Both the position numbers and the translations under genes were made by a program. A stretch of DNA of 64,000 bases from Nonlabens ulvanivorans. GTDB taxonomy: Bacteria > Bacteroidota > Bacteroidia > Flavobacteriales > Flavobacteriaceae. The notes under the pieces are model-generated. The model was given only the letters and a program-made list of their open reading frames with translations. It was not told the DNA's origin and made no database searches. How positions within the stretch are numbered: position 1 is the first letter of the stretch; each line of letters opens with the position of its first letter. Below are positions 6,062 to 61,884 of the stretch, in pieces. Location: NCBI RefSeq assembly GCF_000755285.1, contig NZ_BBMK01000002.1, positions 1 to 64,000 of the forward strand, given 5' to 3'.

Positions 6062-6077
6062 CGCTTTCGCGAAAGCG
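6062..6077. repeat. 16-bp palindrome CGCTTTCGCGAAAGCG, intergenic copy
   Basis: Exact copy, between the putative paaJ -7 box and its ATG, so it lies in the 5' leader. One of three non-coding copies. Confidence 0.95.
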
Positions 6078-6092
6078 AAATAATAGAACGAC

Positions 6093-7304
6093 ATGAAAAA
6101 CACATATATAATCGACGGTGTTCGTACACCCATAGGAAATTACAAAGGAACATTATCTACTATAAGACCAGATGATCTTGCAGCTCATGTAATCAAAACC
6201 GTAGTAGAAAGAAACCCTAATATCCCAACAGATGCTTATGCAGACGTGATCATGGGCTGTGCTAACCAGGCTGGAGAAGACAATCGTAATGTCGCTCGCA
6301 TGGCAGGATTATTGGCTGGGTTACCAGTTACAGTTCCTGGAGAAACAGTAAACAGATTGTGTAGTTCTGGATTGAGTGCCATTGTACATGCTCATAGAGC
6401 CATACAAACTGGTGATGGAGATGTTTTTATTTCTGGTGGTGTAGAGAACATGACTCGTGGACCACTGGTAATTGCAAAACCTAGTAGTGCTTTTGGTACT
6501 GATTCAAAGATGTACGATTCTAGCTTTGGATGGCGTTTTGTCAACCACAAAATGGCCGAAATGTACGGTGTTGACGGAATGGGGAATACGGCTGAAAACC
6601 TTGTAGAGAAATTTACAATCTCTCGAGAAGATCAAGATGCATTTGCCGCATGGTCACAGTTAAAAGCCACAGCAGCACAGCAATCAGGCAGACTTGCAAA
6701 AGAAATAGTTGCGGTAGAAATACCTCAACGCAAAAAAGATCCAATCATCTTTAAAGATGATGAGTTCATCAAACCAACTACTACAAAAGAAGTTCTTGCA
6801 AAACTACGTCCAGCCTTTAAAAAAGAAGGTGGATCTGTAACTGCAGGGAATTCCAGCGGTTTGAATGATGGTGCTGCTGCAACAATTATTGCTAGTGAAG
6901 ATGCTGTAAAAAAGTATGACCTCAAACCGATAGCAAGAGTAGTAAGTAGTGCGGTAGTTGGAGTAGAGCCTCGCATTATGGGAATAGGTCCTGTAATAGC
7001 TAGTAATAAAGCACTTGAAAAAGCAGGTTTAACTCTAGAAGACATGGATGTAATAGAACTTAATGAGGCATTTGCATCGCAAGCATTGGCTTGTACTAGA
7101 GCATGGGGACTTGCAGACGATGATGCGCGCATTAATCCTAACGGTGGATCTATCGCGATAGGTCATCCACTAGGTGTTACGGGAACTCGACTAGCCTATA
7201 GTGCAGCTTTGGAATTACAATTGACTAATAAAAAATATGCGCTTATAACTATGTGTGTAGGTGTAGGACAAGGCTATGCGATGGTGATTGAAAATGTTCA
7301 ATAA
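6093..7304 (+). CDS. paaJ: Thiolase, 3-oxoadipyl-CoA / 3-oxo-5,6-dehydrosuberyl-CoA type
   Basis: Acetyl-CoA acyltransferase of 403 residues. In the phenylacetate pathway this enzyme performs the CoA-dependent thiolytic cleavages that release acetyl-CoA and finally succinyl-CoA. The catalytic triad is visible: the nucleophile Cys90 in NRLCSSGLSA, His358 in GHPLGVTG and Cys388 in MCVGVGQG. The substrate-loop segment SSFGWRFVN and the motif NEAFASQAL are present. Length is normal for the family. Assignment to paaJ, rather than a fatty-acid fadA thiolase, is inferred from the surrounding paaI, paaZ, crotonase and paaY-like genes. A palindrome lies in its leader and the next gene begins 33 bases downstream on the same strand. 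Confidence 0.85.
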   Translation: MKNTYIIDGVRTPIGNYKGTLSTIRPDDLAAHVIKTVVERNPNIPTDAYADVIMGCANQAGEDNRNVARMAGLLAGLPVTVPGETVNRLCSSGLSAIVHAHRAIQTGDGDVFISGGVENMTRGPLVIAKPSSAFGTDSKMYDSSFGWRFVNHKMAEMYGVDGMGNTAENLVEKFTISREDQDAFAAWSQLKATAAQQSGRLAKEIVAVEIPQRKKDPIIFKDDEFIKPTTTKEVLAKLRPAFKKEGGSVTAGNSSGLNDGAAATIIASEDAVKKYDLKPIARVVSSAVVGVEPRIMGIGPVIASNKALEKAGLTLEDMDVIELNEAFASQALACTRAWGLADDDARINPNGGSIAIGHPLGVTGTRLAYSAALELQLTNKKYALITMCVGVGQGYAMVIENVQ

Positions 7305-7337
7305 ACTTTTGTACATTTAAGGGTAAATCTTACAGTT

Positions 7338-8108: not shown

Positions 8109-8133
8109 TCAGATAATTACATGATTCAAAATA

Positions 8134-8149: not shown

Positions 8150-8192
8150 CTTTCCGTTCACTTTTTGTATTTTCGTTGAAGGTTAAATTTAT

Positions 8193-8206: not shown

Positions 8207-8235
8207 GAAATTCTAAAAACTTTTACAAAAAGAAT

Positions 8236-10773
8236 ATGATCCTAGAAAGTTACATCAATGGCCAGTGGCAAGCTGGTGAAGAGAAATCTACACGTAATAT
8301 GTATGACGCCATTACTGGTGACATCATAGGTCTTACAAGTACTGAAGGTTTAGATATTGCTAGTGCGTTACAATACGGTCGCGATCACGGTAAGGTGTTG
8401 AGAGATATGACATTTCAGCAACGTGGTAATATGATTAAGAAATTAGCACTTTATCTCAATAAAAGAAAAAAAGCGTTTTACGACATCAGTTACAAAACTG
8501 GTGCTACTCGTGCAGATAGTTGGGTAGATATAGAAGGTGGTTTTGGAAACCTATTTGCAAATGCGAGTCTTAGAAAACTCTTTCCAGATCAGTCCTATGC
8601 GGTAGAAGGCGATCCTATTGATCTATCAAAAGGTGGTCGTTTCATGGCGCACCATATATTAGTACCGCGCAAAGGTGTAGCAGTTCATATCAATGCCTTT
8701 AATTTTCCAGTATGGGGAATGTTAGAAAAATGTGCTGTAAACTGGATGGCTGGTATGCCAGCAGTGGTTTTGCCAGCACCACAAACAGCGTTTTTAACGG
8801 AAGCGGTAGTACGCGAAATCATCAATTCAGGAATTTTACCAGAAGGATCTTTACAACTCTTAAGTGGGCTTACCACAAGTATTCTAGATACGGTAAACTC
8901 ACAAGACGTTGTAACCTTTACAGGTAGTGCTCATACAGGTAGAAAATTAAAAGCACATCCACGATTATTAGAAGAATCAGTTCCATTCACGATGGAGGCA
9001 GATTCATTAAATTCTTCTGTTTTAGGACCAGATGCTGTTCCTGGAACTCCAGAATTTGACATTTTTGTAAAAGAAGTGCGTAAAGAAATGACCTCTAAAG
9101 CTGGACAAAAATGTACAGCCATTAGAAGAATATTAGTTCCAGAAAACTTGATGGAAGACGTACAAATCGCATTAGGTCAACAACTTTCTAAAACAGTGAT
9201 AGGAGATCCATTATTGAGAGAAACTCGCATGGGTGCTCTTATTAATAATGATCAAAGAGAAACAACTAAATCACAAATCTCAAAAATTGCCCAAACCGCA
9301 CAAATGGTTTATGGTAACCTAGATGAGGTAGAAATTTTAGGAGATCGCGCTCAAAAAGGAGCATTTATGTCACCTATTTTGATGAGAGAAGATCAACCGT
9401 TTAAAAATACGGCAGCTCATGAAGTAGAATGTTTTGGTCCTGTAAGTACGTTGATGCCTTATAAAAATCTAGATGAGGCAATCGAGCTAGCTCACATGGG
9501 TAAAGGTTCGTTGGTGAGCAGTGTAGTAACTAGTGATGACGCTTTCGCGAAAGCGTATACCATAAACGCAGCATCGTCACATGGTAGAATATTGACTTTA
9601 AATAGAGATAGCGCACCACAATCCACAGGACATGGCTCTCCATTACCATTGTTAGTACATGGTGGACCAGGACGTGCTGGTGGCGGCGAGGAAATGGGTG
9701 GACTGCGAGGCATTAAACATTACATGCAACGATGTGCCGTTCAAGGAAGTCCAACTTCGTTGACTGAAATTACAGGGATTTATCAACCTAATGGCGCTTA
9801 TAAAAAAGCAGAGAATCACCCATTTTCATACCATTATGAGGATATCAAGCCTGGAATGAGCCTAGAAACTCATAAAAGAACATTGACTGATAATGATATC
9901 CAGAATTTTGCAAATTTAACTTGGGATCATTTCTATGCGCATACAGATATTACCAGTTTAGATGGTAGTATTTTTAAGAAACGTACCGCGCACGGTTACT
10001 TTATCATCAGTGCAGCGGCAGGACTTTTTGTGTATCCTAATAAAGGTCCGGTAAGCGCCAATTATGGTCTAGAAGACATCCGTTTCTTAAGACCGTTGTA
10101 TCATAATGACACGATTTATGTACGATTGACTTGTAAAGAAAAACGAGAAAGAGATGTAGCTGGTCGTGAGCATCCTAGCGGAATTGTAAAATGGTATGTA
10201 GAAGTTTTTGATGCAGAGCCAGTAGATTATGAAAATGGAAAGACTGATGAAGAATCAACAGCACTGGTAGCTGTGGCAACCATTCTTACCATGGTAGAGA
10301 AAAAGCAAACGGTATTTCCTGAAATTACAGAAGGTTATATCAAGTCTGCTTTAGCAAAATTAGAAGCAAACGCAAAACCTAATTGGGGAACAATGACGCC
10401 ACAGCACATGATAGAACATCTAGAGATGAGCTATAGAATTGCTAGTGGAGAGATTCAAGATTTTGAAGTGGCTACACCAGAGGAGTATCTAGAAAAAGTA
10501 GCAGCGACTTTGTGGAATTATGATAAAATGCCTCAAAACCACAAAATGCCATTAATGAAAAATGGCGAACTAGAAGACTTAAAGCATGGAGATTTAGAAA
10601 CGGCAATGCAACAACTGCTAGAAGCTAGAAATGAATACCTAGATTTCTATAAAAAGAATCCAAAAGCAACTACTAAGAATGCTGTTTTTGGACCGTTGAA
10701 TAAGTATGAATGGACCTTGTTAGAGAGAAAGCATTTGAGTCACCATTTTGAACAGTTTAATATTTCCGCGTAG
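8236..10773 (+). CDS. paaZ: PaaZ oxepin-CoA hydrolase / semialdehyde dehydrogenase with C-terminal DUF1569 (DinB-like) domain
   Basis: Bifunctional ring-opening enzyme of phenylacetate degradation. Residues 1 to about 510 form the aldehyde dehydrogenase, with general base Glu254 (TMEADSLNSS) and nucleophile Cys293 (AGQKCTAIRR), close to Glu256/Cys295 of the E. coli enzyme. Residues about 530-685 are the MaoC-like (R)-hydratase domain (NLTWDHFYAHTD, KRTAHGYFI) that opens oxepin-CoA. Normal PaaZ is about 680 residues; this protein continues to 845 with a domain that looks like DUF1569/DinB-like (WGTMTPQHMIEHLEMSYRIA, final SHHFEQF), joined without a stop. The role of the extra domain is unknown. 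The stop codon lies inside a hairpin (10762-10781), so the last residues may derive from an inserted cassette. An AFAKA palindrome lies at 9540. Confidence 0.92.
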   Translation: MILESYINGQWQAGEEKSTRNMYDAITGDIIGLTSTEGLDIASALQYGRDHGKVLRDMTFQQRGNMIKKLALYLNKRKKAFYDISYKTGATRADSWVDIEGGFGNLFANASLRKLFPDQSYAVEGDPIDLSKGGRFMAHHILVPRKGVAVHINAFNFPVWGMLEKCAVNWMAGMPAVVLPAPQTAFLTEAVVREIINSGILPEGSLQLLSGLTTSILDTVNSQDVVTFTGSAHTGRKLKAHPRLLEESVPFTMEADSLNSSVLGPDAVPGTPEFDIFVKEVRKEMTSKAGQKCTAIRRILVPENLMEDVQIALGQQLSKTVIGDPLLRETRMGALINNDQRETTKSQISKIAQTAQMVYGNLDEVEILGDRAQKGAFMSPILMREDQPFKNTAAHEVECFGPVSTLMPYKNLDEAIELAHMGKGSLVSSVVTSDDAFAKAYTINAASSHGRILTLNRDSAPQSTGHGSPLPLLVHGGPGRAGGGEEMGGLRGIKHYMQRCAVQGSPTSLTEITGIYQPNGAYKKAENHPFSYHYEDIKPGMSLETHKRTLTDNDIQNFANLTWDHFYAHTDITSLDGSIFKKRTAHGYFIISAAAGLFVYPNKGPVSANYGLEDIRFLRPLYHNDTIYVRLTCKEKRERDVAGREHPSGIVKWYVEVFDAEPVDYENGKTDEESTALVAVATILTMVEKKQTVFPEITEGYIKSALAKLEANAKPNWGTMTPQHMIEHLEMSYRIASGEIQDFEVATPEEYLEKVAATLWNYDKMPQNHKMPLMKNGELEDLKHGDLETAMQQLLEARNEYLDFYKKNPKATTKNAVFGPLNKYEWTLLERKHLSHHFEQFNISA
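9540..9555. repeat. 16-bp palindrome, in paaZ (read AFAKA)
   Basis: Exact copy of CGCTTTCGCGAAAGCG, translated as DAFAKAY in the aldehyde dehydrogenase domain. Confidence 0.95.
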
Positions 10774-10781: not shown

Positions 10782-10827
10782 CTTCTAGTACTATCGTGAT
10801 GACTTTTAATATGAAATATCCGCAACA

Positions 10828-13652: not shown

Positions 13653-13668
13653 CGCTTTCGCGAAAGCG
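13653..13668. repeat. 16-bp palindrome, intergenic copy
   Basis: Exact CGCTTTCGCGAAAGCG between the paaY-like gene and the E2 promoter, 18 bases after the stop. It could act as a hairpin but lacks a T tract. Confidence 0.95.
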
Positions 13669-15205: not shown

Positions 15206-17287
15206 TTGGAAAAGTCATTATTAGAATTCGGATATAAAAACCTAACTACTGCCAAATCTATGGCAGAACTCTACGAAGAGAACTTTAAAACGGTTTCTAA
15301 ATATGTGCACGCGACCAGTCGTGGTCACGAGGTGATTCAGACGGCGCTAGGAATGCAGTTGTTGCCACAGGATTATGCTTTTCCATATTACCGTGATGAC
15401 GCGATGTTACTTTCCATAGGGATGAAACCTTATGATTTAATGTTGCAATTGCTGGCTAAAAAAGATGACCCATTTTCTGGTGGACGTACCTATTACTCGC
15501 ATCCATCTTTGAATGATATTGATAAGCCTAAAATCCCACATCAATCTAGTGCTACAGGAATGCAGGCGATTCCTGCGACTGGTGTGGCTCTAGGGTTCCA
15601 TTATCGCGAGAGTTTAACTGACGAGCAACGAGCAGCTGTAGATGATGCAAGTTCAGACTCTAGTGTGACTTCAGACTCGATAGTCGTTTGTTCCCTAGGT
15701 GACGCATCAGTCACAGAAGGAGAAATTGCCGAGGCTTTTCAAATGGCGGCTTTAAAGCAATTGCCTATTTTATATCTAGTGCAAGATAACGGCTGGGATA
15801 TCAGCGCAAATGCAGCCGAAACTCGTGCGCAAAATGCTGCCGAATATGCTGCAGGATTCCACGGTATAGAAGCTATTTCTATCGATGGGACAGATTTTGA
15901 AGAAAGTTACAATACCTTAAACGAGGTGATTGAAAAAATAAGAACAGAGCGCAGACCATTTTTGGTTCACGCTACAGTCCCATTATTGAATCACCATACC
16001 AGTGGTGTAAGAATGGAGTTTTACCGCGATGATTTGGAAGAGGCGAGAAGCCGTGATCCATATCCGCGTATGAGAAAATTATTGCTCGATAATGGATTTA
16101 GTGAGCAGGATTTAGATGGTTATGACGCTTTCGCGAAAGCGGAATCTAAAAAAGCTCTAGAGCAAGCAATGACAATGCCCGATCCTGAACCGTCAGATTT
16201 ATTTACACATGACTTTGCACCAACACCGATAACGGAAGAAAAAGGAGAGCGATCGCCAGAAGGTGCTGATAAAGTCGTGATGGTAGATTGTGCACTATTT
16301 GCTATTGAAGAATTAATGAAAAAGCATCCAGAGTGCTTGTTATATGGGCAAGATGTAGGTGGTAGATTAGGTGGTGTTTTTAGAGAAGCAGCAACGCTGG
16401 CACAAAAATTTGGCGATAATCGTGTATTCAACACGCCTATTCAAGAAGCATTTATTGTAGGTAGTACCGTAGGAATGAGTGCCGCTGGCTTGAAACCTAT
16501 CGTAGAGGTGCAATTTGCAGATTACATCTGGCCTGGATTGAATCAATTATTTACAGAGGTTTCCAGATCTAATTACTTAAGTAATGGAAAATGGCCGGTT
16601 TCTATGATATTGCGAGTACCTATAGGTGCTTATGGTTCTGGTGGTCCCTACCACTCTAGTTCTATGGAAAGTGTGGTTTCTAATATAAGAGGTCTTAAAA
16701 TCGCCTATCCATCAAATGGTGCCGATTTAAAAGGACTGATGAAAGCCGCTTATTACGATCCTAATCCGGTGGTGATTTTTGAACACAAAGGATTGTATTG
16801 GTCCAAAGTAAAAGGAACTAAAGGAGCTACAAGTGTAGAACCTAGTGAGGACTATGTATTGCCTTTTGGTAAAGCATGGGTACTTCAAGAAATCTGGAAA
16901 AAAGAAGAAGAAGAAACGCTGTCCATTATCACATATGGTATGGGCGTGCACTGGGCAATGAATGCTACAGAAGAATTAGGCTTACAAGATAGAGTAGAGG
17001 TTGTTGACTTGAGAACATTACATCCGCTAGATTATGAGACTGTTTTTGCAAGTGTGAAAAAATGTGGAAAATGTCTAGTCGTTACTGAAGAGCCTAGTGA
17101 AAATAGTTTTTCTCGAGCCTTACAAGGTCGCATACAAGAAGAGTGTTTTAAATACATAGATGCACCAGTAATGGTCATAGGTTCTGAAAATATGCCAGCT
17201 ATTCCATTGAATTCAGTGCTAGAAAAAACGATGATTCCATCTACAGAGAAAGTGAAGGCTAAGATTGAGGAAATTCTTAATTATTAA
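15206..17287 (+). CDS. 2-oxoacid dehydrogenase E1, fused alpha and beta subunits (branched-chain type)
   Basis: Thiamine-diphosphate-dependent decarboxylase of 693 residues joining E1 alpha (about 1-340) and E1 beta (about 350-693) in one chain, the common Bacteroidetes arrangement for branched-chain 2-oxoacid dehydrogenase. The TPP-binding stretch runs from CSLGDASVTEGEIAEAF to LVQDNGWDIS, and the beta part begins DKVVMVDCALFAIEELMKK with the phenol-pocket region GVFREAATLAQKFG. Only a TTG start at 15206 (MEKSLLEFGYKNLTTAK) fits; no in-frame ATG precedes it, and a stem-loop sits just upstream, so the start region may be altered or misread. An AFAKA palindrome at 16126 falls in the linker near the alpha-beta junction. 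Confidence 0.9.
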   Translation: MEKSLLEFGYKNLTTAKSMAELYEENFKTVSKYVHATSRGHEVIQTALGMQLLPQDYAFPYYRDDAMLLSIGMKPYDLMLQLLAKKDDPFSGGRTYYSHPSLNDIDKPKIPHQSSATGMQAIPATGVALGFHYRESLTDEQRAAVDDASSDSSVTSDSIVVCSLGDASVTEGEIAEAFQMAALKQLPILYLVQDNGWDISANAAETRAQNAAEYAAGFHGIEAISIDGTDFEESYNTLNEVIEKIRTERRPFLVHATVPLLNHHTSGVRMEFYRDDLEEARSRDPYPRMRKLLLDNGFSEQDLDGYDAFAKAESKKALEQAMTMPDPEPSDLFTHDFAPTPITEEKGERSPEGADKVVMVDCALFAIEELMKKHPECLLYGQDVGGRLGGVFREAATLAQKFGDNRVFNTPIQEAFIVGSTVGMSAAGLKPIVEVQFADYIWPGLNQLFTEVSRSNYLSNGKWPVSMILRVPIGAYGSGGPYHSSSMESVVSNIRGLKIAYPSNGADLKGLMKAAYYDPNPVVIFEHKGLYWSKVKGTKGATSVEPSEDYVLPFGKAWVLQEIWKKEEEETLSIITYGMGVHWAMNATEELGLQDRVEVVDLRTLHPLDYETVFASVKKCGKCLVVTEEPSENSFSRALQGRIQEECFKYIDAPVMVIGSENMPAIPLNSVLEKTMIPSTEKVKAKIEEILNY
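16126..16141. repeat. 16-bp palindrome, in E1 gene (read AFAKA)
   Basis: Exact copy, translated YDAFAKAES near the end of the alpha part. Confidence 0.95.
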
Positions 17288-20228: not shown

Positions 20229-20244
20229 CGCTTTCGCGAAAGCG
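20229..20244. repeat. 16-bp palindrome, intergenic copy
   Basis: Exact copy in the 59-base gap between hutU and the DUF4136 gene. Confidence 0.95.
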
Positions 20245-20273: not shown

Positions 20274-22285
20274 TTAAACTTTGTTCAATAAATCATCACT
20301 TACACTGTGTGGAATGGTGACTTGCAGTTGCGGATTCAATTCCATAGCTCTTTGGATAGCAAAAACAGCATTTTCATTTCTAGCCCAATTGCGCCTTGCA
20401 ATACCATTATTAACATCCCAGAAAAGCATAGACTCAAGTCTAGCTTCTGCTTCGTTACTACCATCAATAAGCATACCAAATCCACCGTTAATTACCTCGC
20501 CCCCCAACCGACGCCACCGCCATTATGTATAGAAACCCAAGTAGCACCTCTAAAACTATCGCCTATAACATTTTGTATTGCCATATCTGCGGTAAAACGT
20601 GAACCATCATATATATTAGAGGTTTCTCGATAAGGAGAATCTGTTCCGGAGACATCGTGATGGTCACGACCTAGAATAACTGGTCCTATGCTACCATCAG
20701 CAATGGCTTTATTAAATGCTCTAGCTATTTCAATACGTCCTTGCGCATCAGCATATAGTATACGGGCTTGAGAACCTACAACGAGCTTATTTTCTTGAGC
20801 ACCTTTAATCCATTTTATATTATCCTGCATTTGCTGTTGGATACGTTCAGGTGCATCTTGTGATAATTGCTCTAATACATCAGTCGCAATTTGATCTGTT
20901 TTCTTAAGATCTTCTGGATCATTAGATGCGCAAACCCATCTAAATGGACCAAAGCCGTAATCAAAACACATCGGTCCCATAATGTCTTGTACATAAGATG
21001 GATATCTGAACTCTTTGTCTTTACCAGCGATATTAGCATCTGCACGGCTAGATTCTAGTAAGAATGCGTTACCATAATCAAAGAAATAGGTACCTTTTTC
21101 AGTGTGTTTATTTATGGCTTCAACGTGTCTGCGTAAAGATCGTTGTACTTCTTTTTTAAATTCATCTGGACGATTACTCATCATCTCATTAGATTCTTTA
21201 AATGATAAGTCGACAGGATAATAGCCGCCAGCCCACGGATTGTGTAGACTAGTCTGATCGCTACCTATGGATATGTGTATGTCTGCCTCATATAGAGCTT
21301 CCCATACGTGAACGATGTTACCTTCAAATGCAATAGAAACAGTTTCTTTATCTATTTGTGCCTCTTTCACACGTGTGATTAAATCGCCTGTAGATTTTAT
21401 AACAACATCAACCCAACCTTGTGTGTGTCTGATGTGGACGGCTTTTGGATTCATTTCAGCACAAATTGTGATACATCCAGCGATGTTACCTGCTTTAGGT
21501 TGTGCGCCGCTCATACCACCTAGACCTGAGGTAACAAAAATATTACCAGTTGGTTTTTGTTTGATTTTTCTAAACGCGTTGAGTACCGTAATAGTTGTTC
21601 CATGTACAATTCCTTGTGGCCCTATATACATATAAGATCCAGCAGTCATTTGTCCATATTGAGTAACACCTAGTGCATTAAATTTTTCCCAGTCATCAGG
21701 TTGCGAGTAATTAGGGATCATCATTCCGTTAGTTACCACACAACGAGGTGCGCCTTTGTGAGAAGGAAACAAGCCCATGGGATGACCACTGTACATTGCT
21801 AGCGTTTGCTCATCAGTCATCTCGCTTAGATACTTCATGGTCAGTAGGTACTGTGCCCAATTAGAAAAAACACCACCATTACCACCATAAGTAATCAATT
21901 CATGTGGATGCTGTGCTACAGCGTGATCTAAGTTGTTTTGAATCATTAACATTATTGCTGCAGCTTGTTTTGAGCGATATGGATAATCCTCAATATTACG
22001 TGCCTTGATTTCATAATCTGGCATAAAGCGATACATATAGATACGCCCATAATCATTAAGCTCTTTCTTAAACTCTGGAAGTAAAACCGCGTGATGTTGC
22101 GGTTCAAAATAACGTAGTGCATTACGTAGAGCTAACTCTTCTTCATCTGCAGAAAGAATTTTTTTACGTTTAGGAGCATGATTCACATTAGTGTTATAAA
22201 TATGAGGTGCTGGTAATGTTTCAGGAATTCCTTGTTTTATGCTTTCGCGGAAACGAACTAAGGAATTATCTACGGCTGTTTGCAT
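20274..22285 (-). CDS. hutU: Urocanate hydratase (frameshifted near C-terminus)
   Basis: Urocanase, which uses tightly bound NAD to convert urocanate to imidazolone propionate in histidine degradation. Start chosen at 22285 (MQTAVDNSLVRF); earlier in-frame residues overlap the upstream gene. Hallmarks include HELITYGGNGGVFSNWAQY, the NAD-binding SGLGGMSGAQPKAG and the Cys in FGPFRWVCASNDPEDL. After HNGGGVGWG the frame breaks in the C6 run at 20500-20505 (+ strand); shortening it to four restores VGWGEVINGGFGML and the normal C-terminus to 20274. The complete product would be about 670 residues. No other hut genes are in the window. An imperfect RFRES palindrome lies near the start. Confidence 0.9.
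22240..22255. repeat. Imperfect 16-bp palindrome, in hutU (read RFRES)
   Basis: TGCTTTCGCGGAAACG, three differences from the consensus. Translated VRFRESIK on the - strand. Confidence 0.7.
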
Positions 22286-22865: not shown

Positions 22866-23827
22866 AGCTTTTTAATGTAAAAAATGCAGTGAATCAGCGA
22901 TATCGTGAATTTAATGATGGAGCGATTATAGTGGATATAAAACGCGAAGATTTATTACATACTCAAGTATCTGGAAATAAACTGCGCAAATTAAAATACA
23001 ATATTCTAGAAGCGCAAGTTCAAGGTCATGATATATTACTCACTTATGGAGGTGCGTTTTCTAACCATATTGCAGCAACAGCAGCAGCTGGTAATATTTG
23101 CGGATTTAATACTATAGGTGTTATTAGAGGTGAAGAATTGGGACATGACCTAGAGAAAACACTTGCCGGAAACAAGACTTTAAATACCGCACACGCATTA
23201 GGCATGAGGTTTAAATTTGTCTCTCGATCTGCTTACCGAGATAAGTATGAAGAATTTTTTCAATTTGCCTTAAAAAAGGAATTTGATTCATTTTACAATA
23301 TTCCTGAAGGTGGAACTAATGATCTCGCAGTTAAAGGAACTGAAGAAATCTTAACAAATAAAGATAAAGATTACTATGATTATATATGTGTTGCCGCAGG
23401 AACTGGCGGTACTGCTGCTGGAATTATAAATAGTGCTGCACCACACCAAAAAGTGTTGGTATTCTCTGCATTGAAAGGTGATTTTATGTTTGATGAAATT
23501 GCACAGTATACAGACAGAGAGAATTTTATGGTTTTTGATGAGAATAGATTTGGTGGATATGCAAAGTCTAGCGACGGATTGATTAAGTTTATGAATGGAC
23601 GCTTTCGCGAAAGCGTAACTGAGCAAAATCCTAAGGGAATACCACTTGAACCTATTTATACCGGAAAAATGATGTATCGATTAGAACATCTTGTTAAGAC
23701 TGGCGTTATCTCTGGAGAAACTCGTATTTTAGCCATTCATACTGGTGGTTTACAAAGTGTCGCAGGATACAACGCCATGCTTGAAAAGAAAGGCAAAATT
23801 ACCTTAGATTATATCAATGAAATTTAA
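22862..23827 (+). CDS. PLP-dependent ACC deaminase / D-cysteine desulfhydrase family enzyme
   Basis: Fold-type II PLP enzyme of 321 residues, related to 1-aminocyclopropane-1-carboxylate deaminase and D-cysteine desulfhydrase. The PLP lysine lies in TQVSGNKLRKLKYN, the phosphate-contact region is YGGAFSNHIAATAAAG, and the glycine loop is AAGTGGTAAGI. Substrate is not decided by what is visible; D-cysteine or another D-amino acid is as likely as ACC in a marine bacterium. It overlaps the small HExxH gene upstream by four bases and the next gene by 11, so these are translationally coupled. A palindrome at 23600 is read RFRES. Confidence 0.8.
   Translation: MKLFNVKNAVNQRYREFNDGAIIVDIKREDLLHTQVSGNKLRKLKYNILEAQVQGHDILLTYGGAFSNHIAATAAAGNICGFNTIGVIRGEELGHDLEKTLAGNKTLNTAHALGMRFKFVSRSAYRDKYEEFFQFALKKEFDSFYNIPEGGTNDLAVKGTEEILTNKDKDYYDYICVAAGTGGTAAGIINSAAPHQKVLVFSALKGDFMFDEIAQYTDRENFMVFDENRFGGYAKSSDGLIKFMNGRFRESVTEQNPKGIPLEPIYTGKMMYRLEHLVKTGVISGETRILAIHTGGLQSVAGYNAMLEKKGKITLDYINEI
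23600..23615. repeat. 16-bp palindrome, in ACC-deaminase-like gene (read RFRES)
   Basis: Exact copy, translated GRFRESVTE. Confidence 0.95.
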
Positions 23828-27679: not shown

Positions 27680-29370
<1,691 letters not shown>

Positions 29371-38641: not shown

Positions 38642-38926
38642 ATGAAATCTAGACCGTTCATATCTCGACTTTTGCTGGCCATTTTTGTAATGGTACAGAT
38701 GTCAGTCTTGCATGAACTGCAGCATGATGACACATCTCAAAATTGTGATGTCTGTATAATTGCCCATGATTTTCAATCCACTTCTTTTCAATTAGCTACA
38801 ACAACTACTATTTCTTTAAATGTTGTTATACCTGTAGCAAAAGAAAAAGTAGATGTTTATTTCGCTTTCGCGAAAGCGTCTTACTTACCATCACATCTCT
38901 CTATCAGGCCGCCGCCAACTGTATAA
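38642..38926 (+). CDS. Small exported protein with CxxC, DUF2946-like
   Basis: A 94-residue protein with a hydrophobic N-terminus (ISRLLLAIFVMVQMSVLHELQH), a possible metal site HDDTSQNCDVCIIAHDF (His and two Cys) and a Pro-rich C-terminus RPPPTV, the pattern seen in DUF2946-type and other small proteins encoded beside metal-linked TonB receptors. It lies 41 bases before such a receptor. Metal sensing or delivery is inference. The C-terminal segment contains the AFAKA palindrome. Confidence 0.55.
   Translation: MKSRPFISRLLLAIFVMVQMSVLHELQHDDTSQNCDVCIIAHDFQSTSFQLATTTTISLNVVIPVAKEKVDVYFAFAKASYLPSHLSIRPPPTV
38863..38878. repeat. 16-bp palindrome, in small CxxC protein gene (read AFAKA)
   Basis: Exact copy, translated FAFAKASYL. 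Confidence 0.95.
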
Positions 38927-42516: not shown

Positions 42517-44056
42517 TTAATAATTGTAAGGATTAGCAATAACGTCATTTGCTCTTGATTTATGCGCTTCTAATTTCTCAGCATCCATTTTTTTCAACAA
42601 ATTCATCATCATTGCCATGCGATGATTTCCTTTAAAGTGATCTTTCTTTTCATCTAGAAAATTCCAGTATAAAGAATTGAAAGGGCATGCATTGTCCTCG
42701 GCATTCTTCTTAGATACTTTATAATGGCATCCTTTACAGTAGTTGCTCATTTTATTAATATAACTACCACTAGAAACGTATGGCTTTGTAGCGACTATTC
42801 CTCCATCTGCCATTGAGACATGCCGCGTGTGTTGGTGATTTCTACCCATTCTATAGCGTCTATATAAACACCTAGATACCATTCATCTACATAACTAGGT
42901 TCGGTCATGGTGAGTAAAGCATAGTTACCGGTGACCATTAAACGTTGTATGTGGTGAGCATATGCATTATCTAGTGAGTTATTAATGGAGTGACTCAAGC
43001 AATTCATCTTAGTCTCTCCAGTCCAGTAAAAGCCTGGTAGCTTATTATGATTTTCTAGTTGGTTTTGACTTTGATAGCTAGGCATTTCCTTCCAGTATAT
43101 TCCTCGCATAAACTCACGCCACCCTAATATTTGTCTTATAAAACCTTCTACTTGAGTAATGTCAATTTTTGGTTTCTCGCTTTCGCGAAAGCGAACTAAA
43201 ACAGCATCTATGACCTCTCTAGGACTTAATAGTTTAGAATTCATGGCAAAACTTAATCTGGAATGATATAAATAATCCTGGTCAGTATGCATGGCATCTT
43301 GGTATGTACCAAACTCTATGAGTAAATACTCACAGAAGTAGTTTAAAATATCCAGTCCATCTTGTCTACTGGTAGGCCAGTTGAAGTTATTTTCATCGAT
43401 GCGTCCTATAGTTATTACACCTTCCTTTTTAAGTAGATCTACTATTGCAGCAACGTCTTTTCTAAAGCCGCGCTCGTGTGGTATATCAGTCTCGCCTTTC
43501 CATTGATTGCGATTACTGTGATCATAGTTCCATTTTCCTCCTTCGGGTTCTAGGTCATCATCAATCATAATTTGATGCTTCTTGCGCATGTCACGATAGA
43601 AATATTCCATAGTCATGCGTTTTTACCTTCAAAGAATTTTTCTACGTCTTTTCTTTTAGTAAAAAAATGTTCGGTATCATAACCTTGCCATTCTATGTCT
43701 AATGATTGGCAAAAGTCTTTAAGTTGTCGGTCTAGTCTAAACTCATCTGGAGCTAGGTATTCAAACTTTTCAATCTTTTGTTCCTTGATGATTTGGTTGA
43801 GGTTCTTTACTAGATCTTGGGTGTTTTTATCATCATCGAGATTGTAGTAAATACTGTTCCAGCCGCGATCATTAATCCATTCATTAAAACCGCGCATCGC
43901 CATAAAAAAGGCAACTACCTTCTGTATATGATGGGTGACATAATCTGTTTCTTGACGCATTTCGGCCATGAAATAAATGATGTTTTCTTGATCACCATCA
44001 AACCACGAGTGCTTGTGGTTAAGTTGATCGCCTAGTATGAGTCTTAATATTTTCAT
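42517..44056 (-). CDS. Fe-S photolyase-related protein (DPRP / FeS-BCP type), two frameshifts
   Basis: Deoxyribodipyrimidine photolyase-related protein of about 510 residues. N-terminus MKILRLILGDQLNHKHSWF; after EGK a missing T (T5 at 43620-43624, + strand) is needed to read GKKRMTMEYFYRDMRKKH and GGKWNYDHSNR. Near the C-terminus a missing base at 42810-42811 is needed to read RGMSQWADGGIVATKPYVSSG. The FAD-binding part has KMNCLSHSINNSLDNAYAHH. The four cysteines expected for the 4Fe-4S cluster are present: one in MNCLSH, two in NYCKGCHYK and one in NACPFN. Relatives repair (6-4) photoproducts or act as photoreceptors. An RFRES palindrome lies at 43178. Confidence 0.88.
43178..43193. repeat. 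16-bp palindrome, in photolyase-related gene (read RFRES)
   Basis: Exact copy, translated VRFRESEKP on the - strand. Confidence 0.95.
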
Positions 44057-46360: not shown

Positions 46361-49300
46361 TTATTCCACTATAAATCTTTTAACAATAGTTTCTTTATAA
46401 GTCTTAATTTGAATCATATAAACTCCAGTCGGTAGGTCTGATACGTTAACTTCTTGTTTTGTCTGACCGCTGGAAATATATTGTCCCTGCAGATTAATAA
46501 TACTATAGTCTATAGTGCCTAAGCTAGGTGCCGCTATATGTAAGTAACCGTTATGCACTGGATTTGGATAAATAGTTAAAAATGGTGTGCTTACCGCTGT
46601 ATTAGTACTTAAATAACCGTTAGCAGTAGCGCCACCTACACAAAAGTTATTCACCTCTACAGTAGTAAAAGATCCACCAGTAGCAAGTGTTGTTCCACCA
46701 GCGGTCAAGCTATAACTACCATTCCCATAAGAACAACACATTCCATCTCCATAAGAATCATTAAATGTTAATACATAGCAATCTGCTGGTAATGATAACG
46801 GGATATTAATGATTGAGCCTTCGGCCTGTCCATCATATCCACTACCAGAAGCGATAGTTGTACCATTACTATCTGATAACGACCAACTTGTTTCTGCAGG
46901 ATAGCGGTCAAAAGTTATCGCTAGATTTGATGTAGTGCTTGTTGCATTTGAACTCAACGCTATATCATCTATCGCGATATCACCTTGCCATTGATTTGTT
47001 GTAGTTCCTACAAATCTTAATTGAACATCATTTCCAGTAAAAGCATTTAAATCTATGCTAGCTGTTAACCATGCGTTACCTTGATTACCTGTTCGAGACC
47101 ATAAGTCAGACCAACTTGAGCCATTATTTGTACTTGCCTGCAGTTTTAAACTTCCCATGCTTGCAATCCCATACATATGATATTTAAAACTCATAGTTGC
47201 AGAATTTATAGCTGTTAAGTCAAAACAAGGTGAATTGAAATAGGTCGTTTTTGAGGTGTTGTTAGGAGCAGATGCTTCAACGTAAATATAAAATGAACCT
47301 TGAGAAGCAGCACTAGGACCTGTATTACTCGATGGTGTGCTACCTGATCTTCTCGTCCAGTCAAAATCATCACCGGTTCCCTGAGACCAACTGCCTATGC
47401 CTGTTTCAAATCCTTCATTATATGGTAAAGAAATAGCATTTACACAACCAGTTGTCGATGCAGCTTCAGTGGTAAAGATCACAGCAGTGCTTATTGCGCT
47501 ATTATTACCAGCTGCGTCTTTTGCTCTTACAACAACGCTGTAAGGTGTTGCAACGCTTAAGCCGGTTAAGTTTGATGTAGTACCATTTACGTTACTTAAT
47601 AGTGAGCCGTCTACATAAAGGTCATAACTAGCAACGGCTATGTTATCACTAGACGCGTTCCATGAAACGGTAGCCGTGTTTTGAGTTATTGTAGACACGC
47701 TTAATCCTGTTGGAACTGATGGAGCCGTTTGATCCGTCGGTGTGACACTCACACTATTAGAAGCGCTAGAGGTATTGCCTGCAGCATCTTTCGCTCTTAC
47801 ATTAAAGCTATAGTTAGTACCTATTACTAGACCTGTAATTTGTATACTAGTGTTAGCGGTAGTTGTTAATAGGGTAGTACCGCGTCTAACTTCATAAGCG
47901 GTAACGCCTACATTATCAGTTGAAGCGGTCCAATTTAAATCTACCGTAGATTCCGTAAGATTATTACTTATCAACGATGTAGGAATACTAGGTGCTGTAG
48001 TGTCTACAGTGTTATTTCCTATAGTCACCGTATAATCTTCTACCTCACCATAATTAAAACTACCACATGATGCAGGTATCGCATTATATTGCATAGAGAT
48101 TCTCATTCTAGTAGCACCATTTAATGCACTATTAGGGATGGAGATAGAACCACTAGCAGGTGTGTTTTGCGATGCAGCAGCTGTCCAAACGGTCTCGCCA
48201 CTATCGTCAAAATCACCGTCTTGGTTAAAATCAATCCAGGCTGCATAGCCTTCAGCATATACGGTACCAGTCCAGGTAGGTGTCACTGTTAAGGTGTAAT
48301 TAGTTCCTTTAGAAACGTTAGTGAATACATTAGTATAGTTAGTATAACCACCAGAACCAGCAGCGCTACTTTGATCGATTGTGTTAAATTGTACACGACC
48401 TATAAACTCGTCTGCAACGCTATTACCATTTGAGGCACAGTATTGTACGCTGGTTGTTGAGAATGTGAAGCTAGAACTGTATGCACTAACACTTCCGTCA
48501 TCACAAACACTGCGTACTTGAGCCTGGTAAGAAGTCGTCGCAGTTAATCCATTGATAGTTATACTAGGCGTGTTTGTGATAAGAGTAGTCCATGTTGTGG
48601 TTCCGCTTTCGCGAAAGCGTACCTGATACGAAGCGCTTGCCACGCATTCCAGCCTATAGATGCATCAGAACTACTAGTGCCGTTAACATTAACGCCAGAT
48701 GGAGTAGAGGCAACACATGGTTGTGCTTGAGCAGCAACTCCAGTAACGATTAAAGAATAATTTTGACTACCACTACTTAAACTTCCCTTATGAGTTATAG
48801 TTATCGTGTATGTACCAGATGGATTACTGACATCAACACGCTCATAGGGATCACGACTATTATCTCCTTGACCATTAGTAGTGATACCGGTAAGTCTCCA
48901 TGGATTATATGTAGTTCCAGACTTAGAAACTCTAATGTCTAAATCATTTACGAGTCGCGCGGTATTACTATTTGCTGTAGTTGTAGCTGTTCCTGCGACA
49001 TCTGTCCATGAAATAGATGCCTTAAGATCTTCAAGTCCGCTAGCATTTACATCTATGGTATAAGATTGGCCTGTGCTTAAGGTTAGTTCAGAAACAATTG
49101 AATTAGTACCTTCTGTCGTTAAAGTTTCGGCCGCTTTTTTAGTATTCATAAGTCCCCAACCATAGATGGCATCAGGACCATTGCTACCAGCATCGTCTGC
49201 TGTGTGCAGTGCTAGGCCTTTTAAGGTTGCAGCTCTCATGTACGAGCCATTAAGGCTGTTGTGATATTGTTGTAATAATAGTAGAGAACCCATCACATTA

Positions 49301-50684: not shown

Positions 50685-51483
50685 ATGGATCTTAAAAAAG
50701 CCTTTGAAGTAAATAAAGCTACCTGGAATCAAAAGACAGCCATACATTTTGAGAGTGAGTTCTATGATAAAGACGCTTTCGCGAAAGCGAAAAATTCACT
50801 TAACTCCTACGAGTTAAACGCACTAGGTGATGTAAAAGACAAAAAGTTACTGCATTTACAATGTCATTTTGGTCAGGACTCCTTAAGTTGGGCACATAAA
50901 GGTGCTGTGGTTACTGGAGTAGATATAAGTGATGAGGCTATAAAACTTGCTAGAAAATTAAGTGTTGATCTAGGTATACCTGCGCAATTTGTTTGCTGTA
51001 ATGTGCTAGAAACTTCAAATTATATTAAAGAAAAATTTGATATCATTTTTACCAGCTATGGTACCATAGGCTGGTTGCCAGATTTAAAGCCATGGGCACA
51101 GATGATTAGTGAACGGTTAAAGTCTGGTGGGGGTTTTCTATATAGTAGATTTTCATCCTATCGCGTGGATGTATGATTATAATGTAACGCCTGCGGTTAT
51201 GAAATACCACTATGCTAGAGAAGAAGCTATATATGATGAGTATGAAGGTACCTATGCAAATGATACATCTAAAATGGTAAGTAAAGAGTACGGTTGGAAC
51301 CACAGTCTTAGCGAAGTCGTGCAATCGCTTATAGATGCTGGGCTTTCTGTCAATCTAATGGCAGAGCATGATGGTAGCCCATACGACGTGTTTCCTAATA
51401 TGAAATTGAGGAATGATGGGTTGTATTATTTAGAAGATGGATTGTATCCAATGCTTTTTGAAGTAAGAGCTGTAAAGGCATAA
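50685..51483 (+). CDS. Class I SAM-dependent methyltransferase (frameshifted)
   Basis: About 266 residues. The SAM-binding motif I reads LLHLQCHFGQDSLSWAHKGA and VTGVDISDEAIKLA supplies the acidic motif II loop; motif IV is IIFTSYGTIGWLPDL. The frame breaks at the G5 run 51129-51133; with four G it reads KSGGVFYIVDFHPIAWMYDY, a segment common in this family. Substrate is unknown. An AFAKA palindrome near the N-terminus falls in a surface-type helix. Confidence 0.85.
50774..50789. repeat. 16-bp palindrome, in methyltransferase (read AFAKA)
   Basis: Exact copy, translated KDAFAKAKN. Confidence 0.95.
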
Positions 51484-54116: not shown

Positions 54117-55481
54117 CTTCTAATGGTAATAGCCAGTCTTTATGCTGGAATGAATCTTTAATTTGATATAGGTTTGCTTTGGGGGGGTCTACTAGTCTGC
54201 GACTGGTTCTACCATTTAACGCGGCATAACAGTCTACATAAACTTCTACATTCTTATATCCTTGCGAGCTATAATGGTCTCCTAAAAAGTGTGCGTATTC
54301 TAAAATAAAGTCAGGTTGAAAGCTCATTTGCTTCTCTTGAAATGACGTTAGAAAATCATCATTTTGAACATAAAATGACTGTCCGGATCCGTCAACAATT
54401 TTAAACTGTGTGTTACCCATTTTTTCCATCAACATCACGCGCCACGAGAATCTATAACCTTCCTCAGTCCAGAACAATTCTCCAGGATACGCCAGGTACC
54501 GCCATGGTAGTAGTAATTGAATTGTGAAAAATATCACTAGTACTGGTATAATAATTTTCTGATATGCGATTTCAAATGGTTTGTTGTTGGTACGCTTTCG
54601 CGAAACGGACTTAATAAAGAGCTTAAAAGGACTTAAAAATCTTCTTAAAAAGGCAATTATTTTTTCATGTAGTGAACTATCAAAAAACACCAATGCACTT
54701 ACGATCATTATAAAAGGAAACATTCCTATCGGGAATAATACTCGAGTCAATACATGGAATATAATCACAGCTATAAATGCCCAAAGCCTCGTTTTTTATA
54801 GAGTAATAAAAAAGGGATGAGCAAATCATAAAGCATACCAGTCCAACTAAACGCATAGTGAACCCATTCTTGTTGCATGAGGTTGCCCAGAAATGGTAAA
54901 TCATATTTAGAAGGCAACCATATTTTTAAAGGCATGGCTTTTAAAAGCCAGTCGCTATTAATTTTTGCTAATCCAGCATAGAAGTAAACGATGCTTAATA
55001 GCAATTTAATACTATCAATAGTCCAATTAGGTATGGTTGGTGCCTTTAATATTGTGCGATCTCCTTGATAATTATCTATTGAAAAATACCGGTTTGCAGG
55101 TAAGAAAATCATTAAAAAGCTAAGTATACTAATGAAATAATAATGATTGAGATAAGTAGCTTTATCCATCAACTCTATATACGTAAAGCTTAAGAAAAAT
55201 AGAATAATGGATAATCTATACTTAAATCCTATCGAAATAAAAAAAGCGGCTAAACCGCAAATAGCAAATAATAAATATGTAAATGTACCTAATGGTTTTG
55301 CCCATCCAAATCCAAAATATGAGAAATGCAATTGAGGTTCTATGTAAAGACTATTGATCCAACCATGAGCCGCAAATCTGATGATACTATAGGTCATCAT
55401 AACGCCAAATCCAATACGGAAGACCGCTAATGGTGCCGCAGACGAGCTTTTGTCCAGATATGATTGTATCGTTTTTTTCAT
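54097..55481 (-). CDS. HTTM-domain membrane protein (frameshifted)
   Basis: About 461 residues with roughly eight to ten transmembrane segments; the HTTM domain (vitamin K gamma-carboxylase-like) is visible from FRIGFGVMMTYSIIRF to WVHYAFSWTGMLYDLLIPF and contains ELMDKATYLNHYYFISIL. The frame breaks in the T6 run 54792-54797 (+ strand); with seven it continues KKTRLWAFIAVIIFHVLTR. The C-terminal soluble part (about 130 residues) ends with SFQHKDWLLPLEDEIK and includes a C7 run at 54181. HTTM proteins in Bacteroidetes often co-occur with imelysin and TonB receptors; the reaction is unknown. Confidence 0.82.
54593..54608. repeat. Imperfect 16-bp palindrome, in HTTM gene (read SRKR)
   Basis: CGCTTTCGCGAAACGG, differing near its end; read VSRKRTN on the - strand. 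Confidence 0.7.
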
Positions 55482-59683: not shown

Positions 59684-59685
59684 AT

Positions 59686-60301
59686 ATGAAAATTATTTGC
59701 ATAGGTCGTAATTATACAGATCACATAGCAGAGCTTCAAAACGAGCGACCTACAGAGCCTGTTGTGTTTCTAAAGCCTGATACATCTATTTTATTACACA
59801 AACAGCCCTTCTTTATTCCATCATTTTCTAATGATGTTCATCATGAGGTAGAAGTAGTTGTGCGTATTAATAGAATAGGTAAACATATCGATAAAAAATT
59901 TGCTCATAAATATTATAATGAGATTGGGTTAGGTATTGACTTTACAGCTAGAGATGTGCAGCAGCGTTGCAAGGAAAAAGGTTTGCCATGGGGAGAAAGC
60001 AAAATCTTTTGATGGTGCAAGTGTGGTGTCTAGAGAGTTTATAAATAAGGAAGAATTAGGTGATTTAAATAACTTGTCATTTGAATTATTTAAAAATGAT
60101 AACTTGCAGCAAAGTGGTGATACCAGTCATATGCTTTGGAAAATAGATGAAATCATAGAACACGTCTCTCAATTTTTCACACTTAAAATAGGAGATCTTA
60201 TTTTTACTGGAACTCCGGCAGGTGTTTCCAGAGTAGAAGAGAATGATGTTTTAAAAGGAACGCTCGCTGGTAGAGAAATGTTCCAGATTAAAGTAAAATG
60301 A
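59686..60301 (+). CDS. Fumarylacetoacetate hydrolase-family enzyme (frameshifted)
   Basis: FAH-fold hydrolase of about 205 residues. It starts MKIICIGRNYTDHIAELQN and has VVFLKPDTSI, HHEVEVVVRI with the metal-binding acidic residues, FTARDVQQRC and IGDLIFTGTPAGV. At 59990-59993 there is one G too many; with three, the family motif GLPWEKAKSFDGAS appears and the frame continues. Members of this size hydrolyse or decarboxylate acylpyruvates or oxaloacetate; the substrate here is not shown. It overlaps the next start by four bases. Confidence 0.85.
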
Positions 60302-60636
60302 AGCAAAGACTATATAATCTACAAAAGTTAATAGAGCTCTCAGATAATGATGCAGACTTTATTAAGGATATGGTAGAAATGTTTATTACAGAAATTCCTA
60401 AGGATCTCGAGCATCTCGCTGTTGCTATAATCGATGACGATAGAAAACGAGTGCATGAGTATGCTCATAAGATGAAACCTAGTATCGATATGTTTGGATT
60501 AGAATGCTTGTCTGATATATTAATTATTGAGGCATGGGGGGGAAAATCAAATGATGAAATGGATATTAAAGAACATTTCATGCGTGTCAATCAGGAGCTT
60601 GATATGGCATTAATACAACTTAAAAGAGACTTCTAA
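60298..60636 (+). CDS. HPt (histidine phosphotransfer) domain protein
   Basis: Stand-alone HPt protein of 112 residues, a four-helix bundle that relays phosphate in multistep phosphorelays. The phospho-accepting His57 lies in RVHEYAHKMKPSIDMFG. No kinase or regulator is encoded nearby, so partners are elsewhere. The G7 run at 60536-60542 encodes WGGKS; relatives vary here. It is coupled on both sides, overlapping the FAH stop (ATGA) and abutting the cinA start. Confidence 0.8.
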   Translation: MKQRLYNLQKLIELSDNDADFIKDMVEMFITEIPKDLEHLAVAIIDDDRKRVHEYAHKMKPSIDMFGLECLSDILIIEAWGGKSNDEMDIKEHFMRVNQELDMALIQLKRDF

Positions 60637-61884
60637 ATGCAAGCAACTATAATTACCATAGGAGATGAAATTCTTATAGGACAAATTGTAGATACTAACT
60701 CTGCATGGATGGCAAACGAGCTCAATAAGATAGGAGTAAATGTTTATGAGATTATCTCAATAAGTGATGATCGTGAGCATATTCTTTCCGCTTTCGCGAA
60801 AGCGAAACAACAATCAGACATCGTGCTTGTCACAGGTGGTTTAGGACCGACTAAAGATGATATCACAAAGAAAACAATTTGTGAATTTTTTGATGACCAA
60901 CTGGAGTTGAATCAAGAAGTTTTAGATCATGTGGTCATGCTTTTTGAAAAGTACGTTAAAGCACCTATGGTTGATATGAATAAAGACCAAGCTCTAGTTC
61001 CATCTAAAGCACAGGTGATTACTAATCAATACGGTACGGCGCCTGGATTATGGATTGAAGATGAAGGAACAATTTTTGTTTCTATGCCAGGTGTGCCTTT
61101 TGAAATGAAAGCATTAATGACAGATGGTGTGTTACCTAAAATTCTTAATATAGGTGAATTGCCATTTATACATCACCGCACAATTCTTACAGCAGGTCAA
61201 GGAGAAAGTACAATAGCTACAAGGTTAGAGCAATGGGAGAATAATTTACCTTCTCATATCAAACTTGCTTATTTGCCTAGTTTAGGTACTGTGCGTTTAA
61301 GATTGTCCTCTCGAGGAATGGATAAAGATTTTATTCTTAAATCAGTAGATGATCAGATTCAACAACTGTATGCTATAATAGATGATGTAATAGTTGGTGA
61401 AAGTAATGATGAAAGTTTAGTTCATGCTGTGGTTCACTTGTTAAAAGAGAATAATAAAACAGTCGCAACTGCAGAGAGTTGTACGGGTGGAAAAATAGCG
61501 AGTCTTATTACAGAGATTCCAGGAGCGTCTAATGTTTTTATGGGTAGTACTGTTACTTATGCTACACAGTCTAAAGTCGATATGCTAGGTGTTAACCCAT
61601 TAATTATTGAAAAATATAGTGTGGTAAGTGAACAGGTAGCTTATGAGATGGCTTCTAAGGCACGATTAAAGTTTAATTCAGATTATGCCGTTGCAACGAC
61701 CGGTAATGCAGGACCTACACAAGGAGATAGTGATGCGCCTGTTGGAACTGTTTATATAGGGATAGCAACACCAGAAAAAACATACGCACTAAAATTTATG
61801 ATGGGTAATCATAGAGATAGAGTAGTTCAAAAAACAATTAACAAAGCATTGGAACTATTGCAAAAAGAGTTAATAGCTCAGTAA
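60637..61884 (+). CDS. cinA: CinA-family protein, NMN amidohydrolase / ADP-ribose pyrophosphatase type
   Basis: 415 residues. The N-terminal molybdopterin-binding-like domain (about 1-170: TIGDEILIGQIVDTNSAWMA, VTGGLGPTKDDITKK) carries the COG1058 activity in relatives, and the C-terminal domain (about 255-410) is PncC-type with TAESCTGGKIASLITEIPGA and VGTVYIGIATP. Such proteins recycle pyridine nucleotides and are also linked to competence. It ends the guaB-FAH-HPt-cinA operon. An AFAKA palindrome at 60789 lies before the first domain's GGLGP loop. Confidence 0.93.
   Translation: MQATIITIGDEILIGQIVDTNSAWMANELNKIGVNVYEIISISDDREHILSAFAKAKQQSDIVLVTGGLGPTKDDITKKTICEFFDDQLELNQEVLDHVVMLFEKYVKAPMVDMNKDQALVPSKAQVITNQYGTAPGLWIEDEGTIFVSMPGVPFEMKALMTDGVLPKILNIGELPFIHHRTILTAGQGESTIATRLEQWENNLPSHIKLAYLPSLGTVRLRLSSRGMDKDFILKSVDDQIQQLYAIIDDVIVGESNDESLVHAVVHLLKENNKTVATAESCTGGKIASLITEIPGASNVFMGSTVTYATQSKVDMLGVNPLIIEKYSVVSEQVAYEMASKARLKFNSDYAVATTGNAGPTQGDSDAPVGTVYIGIATPEKTYALKFMMGNHRDRVVQKTINKALELLQKELIAQ
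60789..60804. repeat. 16-bp palindrome, in cinA (read AFAKA)
   Basis: Exact copy, translated LSAFAKAKQ. Confidence 0.95.

Follow-up and report, generated by a model that had tools for sequence, protein, structure and literature searches.

Published uptake sequences are evenly spaced, have a core with flanks, lie in open reading frames (ORFs) at 65% as against 86% coding, and are rare in newly acquired DNA, according to the excerpts consulted of PMC1939737, PMC7811141 and PMC2346458. In cyanobacteria, the frequency of highly iterated palindromes (HIP) tracks methyltransferases, as far as the excerpt of PMC4390886 goes. Here we describe a palindromic 16-mer, CGCTTTCGCGAAAGCG (the word), that recurs in a stretch of 64,000 nucleotides from Nonlabens ulvanivorans (the window). 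The window sits on a 449-kb contig of a 3.09-Mb assembly that is 87% complete. The closest named relatives of its 693-amino-acid E1-like dehydrogenase (96-97%) are from N. xylanidelens, N. ulvanivorans, strain BBFL7 and N. dokdonensis. We found that CGCTTTCGCGAAAGCG is a strong iterated DNA word, that its site is symmetric and extends beyond the 16-mer, that its taxonomic range is sharply limited, and that it is new relative to the literature searched.

Abundance, taxonomic limits and spacing

The word is heavily overrepresented in the window. We counted 16 sites matching it exactly or nearly, against a mean of 0.11 (maximum 1) in 100 dinucleotide-preserving shuffles; a Markov estimate puts the expected number of exact copies at about 2e-6 to 3e-6 per window. 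Twelve sites are exact, two have a single end mismatch, one has two mismatches and one has three (Table 1). Their mean spacing is 3648 bp, with a coefficient of variation (CV) of 0.37. Thirteen lie inside reading frames, where they encode AFAKA (7 sites), RFRES (4) or SRKR (2). ORFs were called mechanically (at least 60 amino acids, longest first), with coding fractions that are approximate, and two of the 13 assignments are soft: 38863 lies in an ORF of just 94 amino acids, and 48604 is at the ninth codon of an ORF that overlaps its neighbor at the start. The original prediction, made from the sequence alone, had given the same positions and mismatch classes, all of which we reproduced, and its coding count and division among peptides came out the same in our independent ORF call.

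Table 1. Sites of the word in the window.
Site	Position	Strand	Context
Word, exact	6062..6077	.	Intergenic
Word, exact	9540..9555	.	paaZ-like gene (DAFAKA); position common to Dokdonia
Word, exact	13653..13668	.	Intergenic
Word, exact	16126..16141	.	Fused 2-oxoacid dehydrogenase E1-like gene (DAFAKA); at most 1 mismatch in 17/17 Nonlabens/Dokdonia rows
Word, exact	20229..20244	.	Intergenic at ORF cut-off of at least 60 amino acids
Diverged word, 3 mismatches	22240..22255	.	hutU-like gene; just below family cut-off
Word, exact	23600..23615	.	In gene (RFRES); gaps in aligned word-less orthologues
Word, exact	28321..28336	.	In gene (AFAKA)
Word, 1 end mismatch	32575..32590	.	In gene (AFAKA)
Word, 1 end mismatch	35019..35034	.	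In gene (LSRKR)
Word, exact	38863..38878	.	Short ORF, 94 amino acids
Word, exact	43178..43193	.	In gene (RFRES)
Word, exact	48604..48619	.	Overlapping start of ORF (RFRES)
Word, exact	50774..50789	.	In gene (AFAKA)
Diverged word, 2 mismatches	54593..54608	.	In gene (SRKR)
Word, exact	60789..60804	.	In gene (AFAKA)

The genome-wide count is likewise nowhere near chance expectation, in keeping with the original prediction. The window's own assembly contains 629 sites with at most two mismatches (372 of them exact), compared with 2 for a reversed control word. Another 22 genomes of the same genus contain 453-937 sites each. Controls from outside the genus gave 0 sites in one genome of another genus of the family and 0-4 sites in 15 genomes of other families.

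Copy number falls off sharply outside a few genera. Exact copies were counted in 33 named genomes chosen from 80. There were 401-602 in each of 8 Nonlabens and 230-711 in each of 6 Dokdonia; among 18 others, 14 had none, three had 1-4 and Patiriisocius marinus had 13. A metagenome genome titled Cytophagaceae bacterium (L039 / G057) had 162 exact copies. This title is probably wrong, because the genome shares word positions with Dokdonia. Across 397 genomes of the family, from 237 genera, more than 100 copies were found in six (four Nonlabens, G275 and G259), 1-13 in 42, and none in the rest. The most conserved core, GCTTNNGCNNAAGC, occurs 615-711 times in Nonlabens, 939 times in G275 and 469 times in G259, and at most 41 times in each of the 391 others. 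The genome sets overlap (a contig of 291,836 bases occurs both in G008 and in the genome of L012), and therefore the named and survey counts are not additive. In an rpoB tree, G275 falls within Dokdonia, G259 adjoins Dokdonia, and Nonlabens is separate; the word may still have had a single origin. G259, from a sister genus of Dokdonia, has just 153 full 16-mers among its many cores, and weaker flanks; its set could be a dialect or a decaying set.

A mild excess of the core GCTTNNGCNNAAGC over its reversed control (23-41 copies) was seen in several further genomes: G213/G397 (g159), G196/G385 (g142), G120, G122/G341 and G145/G355. These copies could be relics, weak use or imported DNA. No comparable palindromic word was found among the 10-mers of 22-kb loci in word-less genera. 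Strings resembling ATTTCCGAAG / CTTCGGAAG recur in Aequorivita, Patiriisocius, Altibacter and their neighbors (L015-L017, L033, L035, L058), along with some local repeats; they are perhaps tetraloop terminators or another word.

Searches of open-licence PMC full texts found no paper with the 16-mer or its 14- or 12-mer. Papers containing the inner 10-mer TTCGCGAAAG, and others containing TTTCGCGAAA, were not about this word, judging by their titles. The same full texts yielded nothing on this word under Dokdonia, Nonlabens, Krokinobacter, Persicivirga, or palindromes and uptake sequences of Flavobacteriaceae, and the excerpt consulted of PMC5217627 does not contain the word-bearing genera.

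We found that the sites are more evenly spaced than expected by chance. The CV of spacing was 0.55 and 0.51 in two genomes, compared to 0.97 and 0.91 in simulations, and was below all 2000 simulated values in each. Only 4 of 108 and 10 of 97 spacings were shorter than 1.5 kb (35 and 38 expected). Of 193 sites with at most one mismatch, 136 were in ORFs and 57 between them, although ORFs make up 92% of the bases; the sites are thus in excess in intergenic DNA. The 136 ORF sites use all three frames (AFAKA, 80; RFRES, 33; LSRK, 23) and favor the first fifth of genes (43/136). Along the chromosome of a Nonlabens relative (G003), sampled as 20 stretches of 20 kb, one per 150 kb, we found 2-9 sites per stretch. 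The number of sites did not clearly drop around the GC-skew switches, by which alone origin and terminus were judged, and the three poorest stretches were within 0-320 kb.

Anatomy and origin of the sites

The sites form a graded family around the exact word. In 464 kb of the window's own genome, 58, 32, 19 and 6 sites had 0, 1, 2 and 3 mismatches (reversed control: 0, 0, 1 and 10). In 400 kb of G003 the numbers were 84, 19, 9 and 5 (reversed control: 0, 0, 1 and 9). The density is about one word per 3.2-4 kb. Mismatches are mostly at the outermost C and G and next at the inner T-C / G-A, with hardly any in the half-site CTT or at the central GC.

The bias in composition extends well beyond the 16-mer. 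The flanks are symmetric, G-poor on the 3' side and C-poor on the 5' side out to about 28 bp. On either strand, the frequency of G from +3 to ~+28 is 0.03-0.1 near the word, compared with about 0.18 farther away, and positions +2, +3, +9, +11 and +12 are A-rich. The bias is present on both sides when sites are oriented by coding strand. At 13 homologous positions with both word-bearing and word-less rows (rows gapped near the word left out), 3' G was lower in the word-bearing rows at 12 and equal at one (mean 0.10 versus 0.18), and 3' C was higher in the word-bearing rows at all 13. Because the bias is weaker in word-less orthologues, we conclude from the alignments that the flanks belong to the site, which is predicted to span ~70 bp. 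The G content of the flanks has a period near 10 bp that is suggestive only, since the permutation null ignores filter smoothing. Apart from the word and the biased composition of its flanks, the sites showed no repeated sequence.

The pattern of mismatches speaks for a DNA site with a predicted protein contact to each half, and not for a hairpin. Mismatches within the word are nearly all one-sided and uncompensated, and within a genome the arms do not covary except weakly at +1. The covariation at +1 has a pooled z of 5.0 but, taken genome by genome, a z of 2.9 and 1.1, and is therefore partly an effect of pooling. The word could form a 6-bp stem, as read from the sequence, so that one might think of an RNA hairpin or terminator. 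That its 3' side carries A, rather than a T run, on both strands, together with the uncompensated mismatches, makes this extremely improbable.

We compared word-bearing and word-less homologues at 17 Nonlabens and Dokdonia loci around the E1 gene. These contain 106 sites, 90 of them in ORFs of at least 120 codons, at 30 distinct coding positions. For 10 of the 30, the sample held no word-less homologue. Of the other 20, 11 were free of gaps in every word-less row, 4 were mostly gap-free and 5 were mostly gapped; over these positions, 483 word-less rows had no gaps and 150 had gaps. With 15 of 20 sites free or mostly free of gaps, substitution dominates the origin of coding sites, with insertion possible at five. 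The original prediction had allowed for a spreading mechanism. In the form of biased DNA uptake this idea is the one we favor (below); as insertion it fares poorly. In particular, a mobile or inserted palindromic element of the repetitive extragenic palindromic (REP) or Rickettsia palindromic element (RPE) type, spread by transposition, would account for the five mostly gapped positions (e.g., 23600). The gap-free alignments at the rest, and the lack of any longer repeat, leave it very improbable.

Three of the 30 coding positions are common to Nonlabens and Dokdonia. The E1 site has at most one mismatch in all 17 Nonlabens and Dokdonia rows. In 65 outgroup rows it has 4-14 differences, and the protein there is freely variable. 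The paaZ site is retained in 9/9 Nonlabens and 4/5 Dokdonia rows. The third is present in 6/6 Dokdonia rows and two Nonlabens; seven further Nonlabens lack it, either through loss or because they never acquired it. Near these three sites, codons for the same amino acid outside the word were identical between the genera in 592 of 1192 cases (50%), compared to 578 of 591 (97.8%) inside it. Only Nonlabens-Dokdonia pairs keeping the word at no more than one mismatch were counted, and the pairs are not independent. The inside value is therefore high by construction, and the 50% outside is the informative figure.

These results bear out the earlier suggestion that selection acts on the DNA word and not on the protein. 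The word is found genome-wide, in three genera only among those sampled, in each of the three frames as well as in intergenic DNA, and with altered flank composition; its best-studied site lies in a stretch that varies freely among word-less orthologues. We did not find AFAKA or RFRES kept for protein reasons, with other codons, in orthologues. It appears that protein sequence (AFAKA, RFRES, LSRKR) is here written by a DNA requirement.

Possible functions of the word

Our results are perhaps best accommodated, at somewhat less than an even chance, by the notion that the word is an uptake-sequence-like self label for pilus-independent transformation of Flavobacteriaceae. The 16-mer would be the core of a symmetric, ~70-bp protein-binding site that marks as self the chromosomes of Nonlabens, Dokdonia and a single sister genus. 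During natural transformation, the pilus-independent machinery of Flavobacteriaceae would prefer fragments that carry it. Mutation, together with bias in uptake and recombination, would then let the word accumulate, to about one per fragment length, where protein constraint permits. This notion starts from what we observed (the word, the restriction to three of the genera sampled, the evenly spaced sites and their flanks, and gain mostly by substitution) and adds a putative reader protein, a presumed uptake bias and presumed transformability of these species. Taken together, the core with its biased flanks, the even spread, the shortage of close neighbors and the rarity in some new DNA are reminiscent of published uptake sequences (PMC1939737, PMC7811141, PMC2346458 and PMC3630211).

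The uptake machinery could be present in these hosts. Riemerella, a member of the Flavobacteriaceae, transforms without detected pilus homologues, in the excerpts consulted of PMC8459023 and PMC7965970. Its uptake depends there on ComEC, DprA and ComF together with an operon for DUF5689 and outer-membrane proteins, and R. columbina shows a preference for DNA of its own kind, with no motif assigned. We searched for reader proteins in 12 word-bearing and 20 word-less genomes chosen by hand. None of ParB, pilus ATPase, 5-methylcytosine (m5C) methylase, ComEC or DUF5689 separates the two groups. ComEC and DUF5689 were each found in 32/32 genomes. The DUF5689/outer-membrane operon pair occurred together in 10/10 regions read (the Pfam check was done in the window's own genome, where the adjoining gene is an Exo_endo_phos_3 nuclease). 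In the comEC and DUF5689-operon neighborhoods of 10 genomes, no gene was present in at least 5/7 word-bearing and 0/3 word-less genomes. In a DUF5689 tree the word-bearing genera are not united (3 changes).

We also looked for the word in phages and other mobile DNA. Two phages (one genus) that infect a Nonlabens (Persicivirga) host together comprise 71,352 bases, in which ~18 sites would be expected at the density of our own-genome sample; none was present when up to three mismatches were allowed. The longest gap in that sample is a 17-kb glycosyltransferase cluster without the word (L107 13321 to L108 10434). One of the three poorest stretches of G003, which carries Wadjet-type genes (JetD, SMC-like, DUF4194, DUF3375; L089 1244-7296), contains no exact copy. 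Another word-free stretch of G003 (L087 3019-13001, 50% GC) has two very long adjacent ORFs of 1321 and 2016 amino acids, and no Rfam match. In IMG/VR, the exact word occurs in 41 stretches, and a pair of copies 1760 bp apart is common to L211 and L215. For the viral contig with tail-like genes (below), Pfam on six proteins of L232 added DUF1353 only. One viral stretch had no megablast match among phages, and a plasmid search by protein gave only matches below 80% identity.

In several genera with few copies, the word probably arrived on a horizontally moved island, without multiplying there, because the genes of the two regions read (L147 1-20000 and L154 1-13000) resemble, by eye and without a profile search, metal-efflux proteins and a multicopper oxidase. 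Copies in these genera have recurring spacings of 2446, 933 and 3460 bp, which suggests repeated horizontal movement of islands.

Several points weigh against an uptake label. The uptake sequences known to us are asymmetric, and perfect two-fold symmetry points more toward a dimer in the cytoplasm. A pilus-type ATPase scored above cut-off in only 4/12 word-bearing genomes. The competence genes examined are equally present in word-less genera, and therefore do not explain the restriction to three genera. The literature searched holds no report of transformation of Nonlabens or Dokdonia. A viral contig with phage tail-like genes (a baseplate hub match at 2e-41 and two weaker matches; the genes include a tail chaperone) carries 6 exact copies in 27.9 kb of its 37 kb, a host-like density; it may be a free phage, a prophage or an injection system. 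Finally, the evidence from new DNA consists of few, chosen cases, with one of six gaps longer than 8.5 kb annotated.

Our preference is no firmer than this because a dimeric protein of the cytoplasm would suit the symmetry equally well or better. The word might instead be a chromosome-organizing site, at which a dimeric nucleoid protein (a condensin loader, domain boundary factor or nucleoid-occlusion-like protein) wraps or bridges DNA about every 3-4 kb, with selection maintaining both sites and spacing. We regard this as the main rival, less probable than the uptake label but clearly more so than the other alternatives. The perfect symmetry, the ~70-bp site with its suggested ~10-bp flank period, the even spacing and the three coding sites kept between Nonlabens and Dokdonia all fit. 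MatP and Noc sites are biased in density along the chromosome, and the sampled G003 chromosome had no clear bias. One ParB match was found in 25/32 genomes, with extra matches in word-bearing (G019, G045, G059) and word-less (G055, G060, G066, G353) genomes alike, and thus no Noc-like paralogue is tied to the word. The intergenic excess and the absence from recent DNA do not discriminate.

An iterated GC-rich palindrome in an AT-rich genome also recalls HIP1, and the word could be kept by a DNA methyltransferase acting on its center (e.g., TCGCGA or CGCG). The original prediction had pointed to HIP1 and methylation. This link did not hold for the one family examined: the m5C methyltransferase family PF00145 is missing in 6/12 word-bearing and present in 12/20 word-less genomes. 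Methylase targets are far shorter than a 16-bp core with flanks, and HIP1 itself is an 8-mer, so we consider such a role improbable. There is about as little to recommend a Chi-like signal for recombination or DNA protection, read by a nuclease of the RecBCD/AddAB type and made orientation-free by the palindrome. A density of about one per 3-4 kb, genus specificity, mostly intragenic placement and absence from the two phages would suit it. Known Chi sites, however, are short and asymmetric, and symmetric double-strand flanks are ill-suited to a single-strand reader.

Relation to known iterated words

Few iterated words are this strong, and such words have pointed to basic DNA processes. The word is unusually long, symmetric and limited to three sampled genera, and could therefore serve directly as bait for its putative reader protein. 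Should it prove to be an uptake signal, it would open a direct test of pilus-free transformation in Flavobacteriaceae, whose outer-membrane machinery lacks explanation. If it is a chromosome organizer, it would represent a site-specific nucleoid system in Bacteroidota.

The DNA uptake sequences (DUS) of Neisseriaceae and uptake signal sequences (USS) of Pasteurellaceae are like the word in having hundreds to thousands of copies, even spacing, a core with weaker flanks, graded mismatches, an intergenic excess and clade-level differences; scarcity in recent DNA has been reported for them. They are asymmetric 9-12-mers. In contrast, the word is a 16-bp perfect palindrome, in Bacteroidota, mostly without a pilus ATPase, and known from sequence alone. 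The H. influenzae uptake sequence occurs about once per 1 kb, compared to about once per 3.2-4 kb here. HIP1 and alternate HIPs of cyanobacteria are, like the word, iterated palindromes that are mostly intragenic and clade-restricted. The HIP1 octamer GCGATCGC is a different word, half as long, and the Nonlabens word has extended flanks and no tie to an m5C methyltransferase.

The parS and Noc sites of the ParB family are palindromes of 14-16 bp with a TTTC...GAAA look that resembles the word. Their consensus differs from it by 2 bp in half-site spacing, and the word has hundreds of copies, no clear density bias and no extra ParB tied to it. Chi occurs about once per 4-5 kb, and is clade-specific and similar in density to the word, which is symmetric and long. 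Against this background, and still more tentatively than the self-label function itself, the word may be the first example of a DNA uptake sequence from the Bacteroidota. It would then be a palindromic, symmetric self label of ~70 bp with clade dialects (G259), read by a pilus-independent apparatus.

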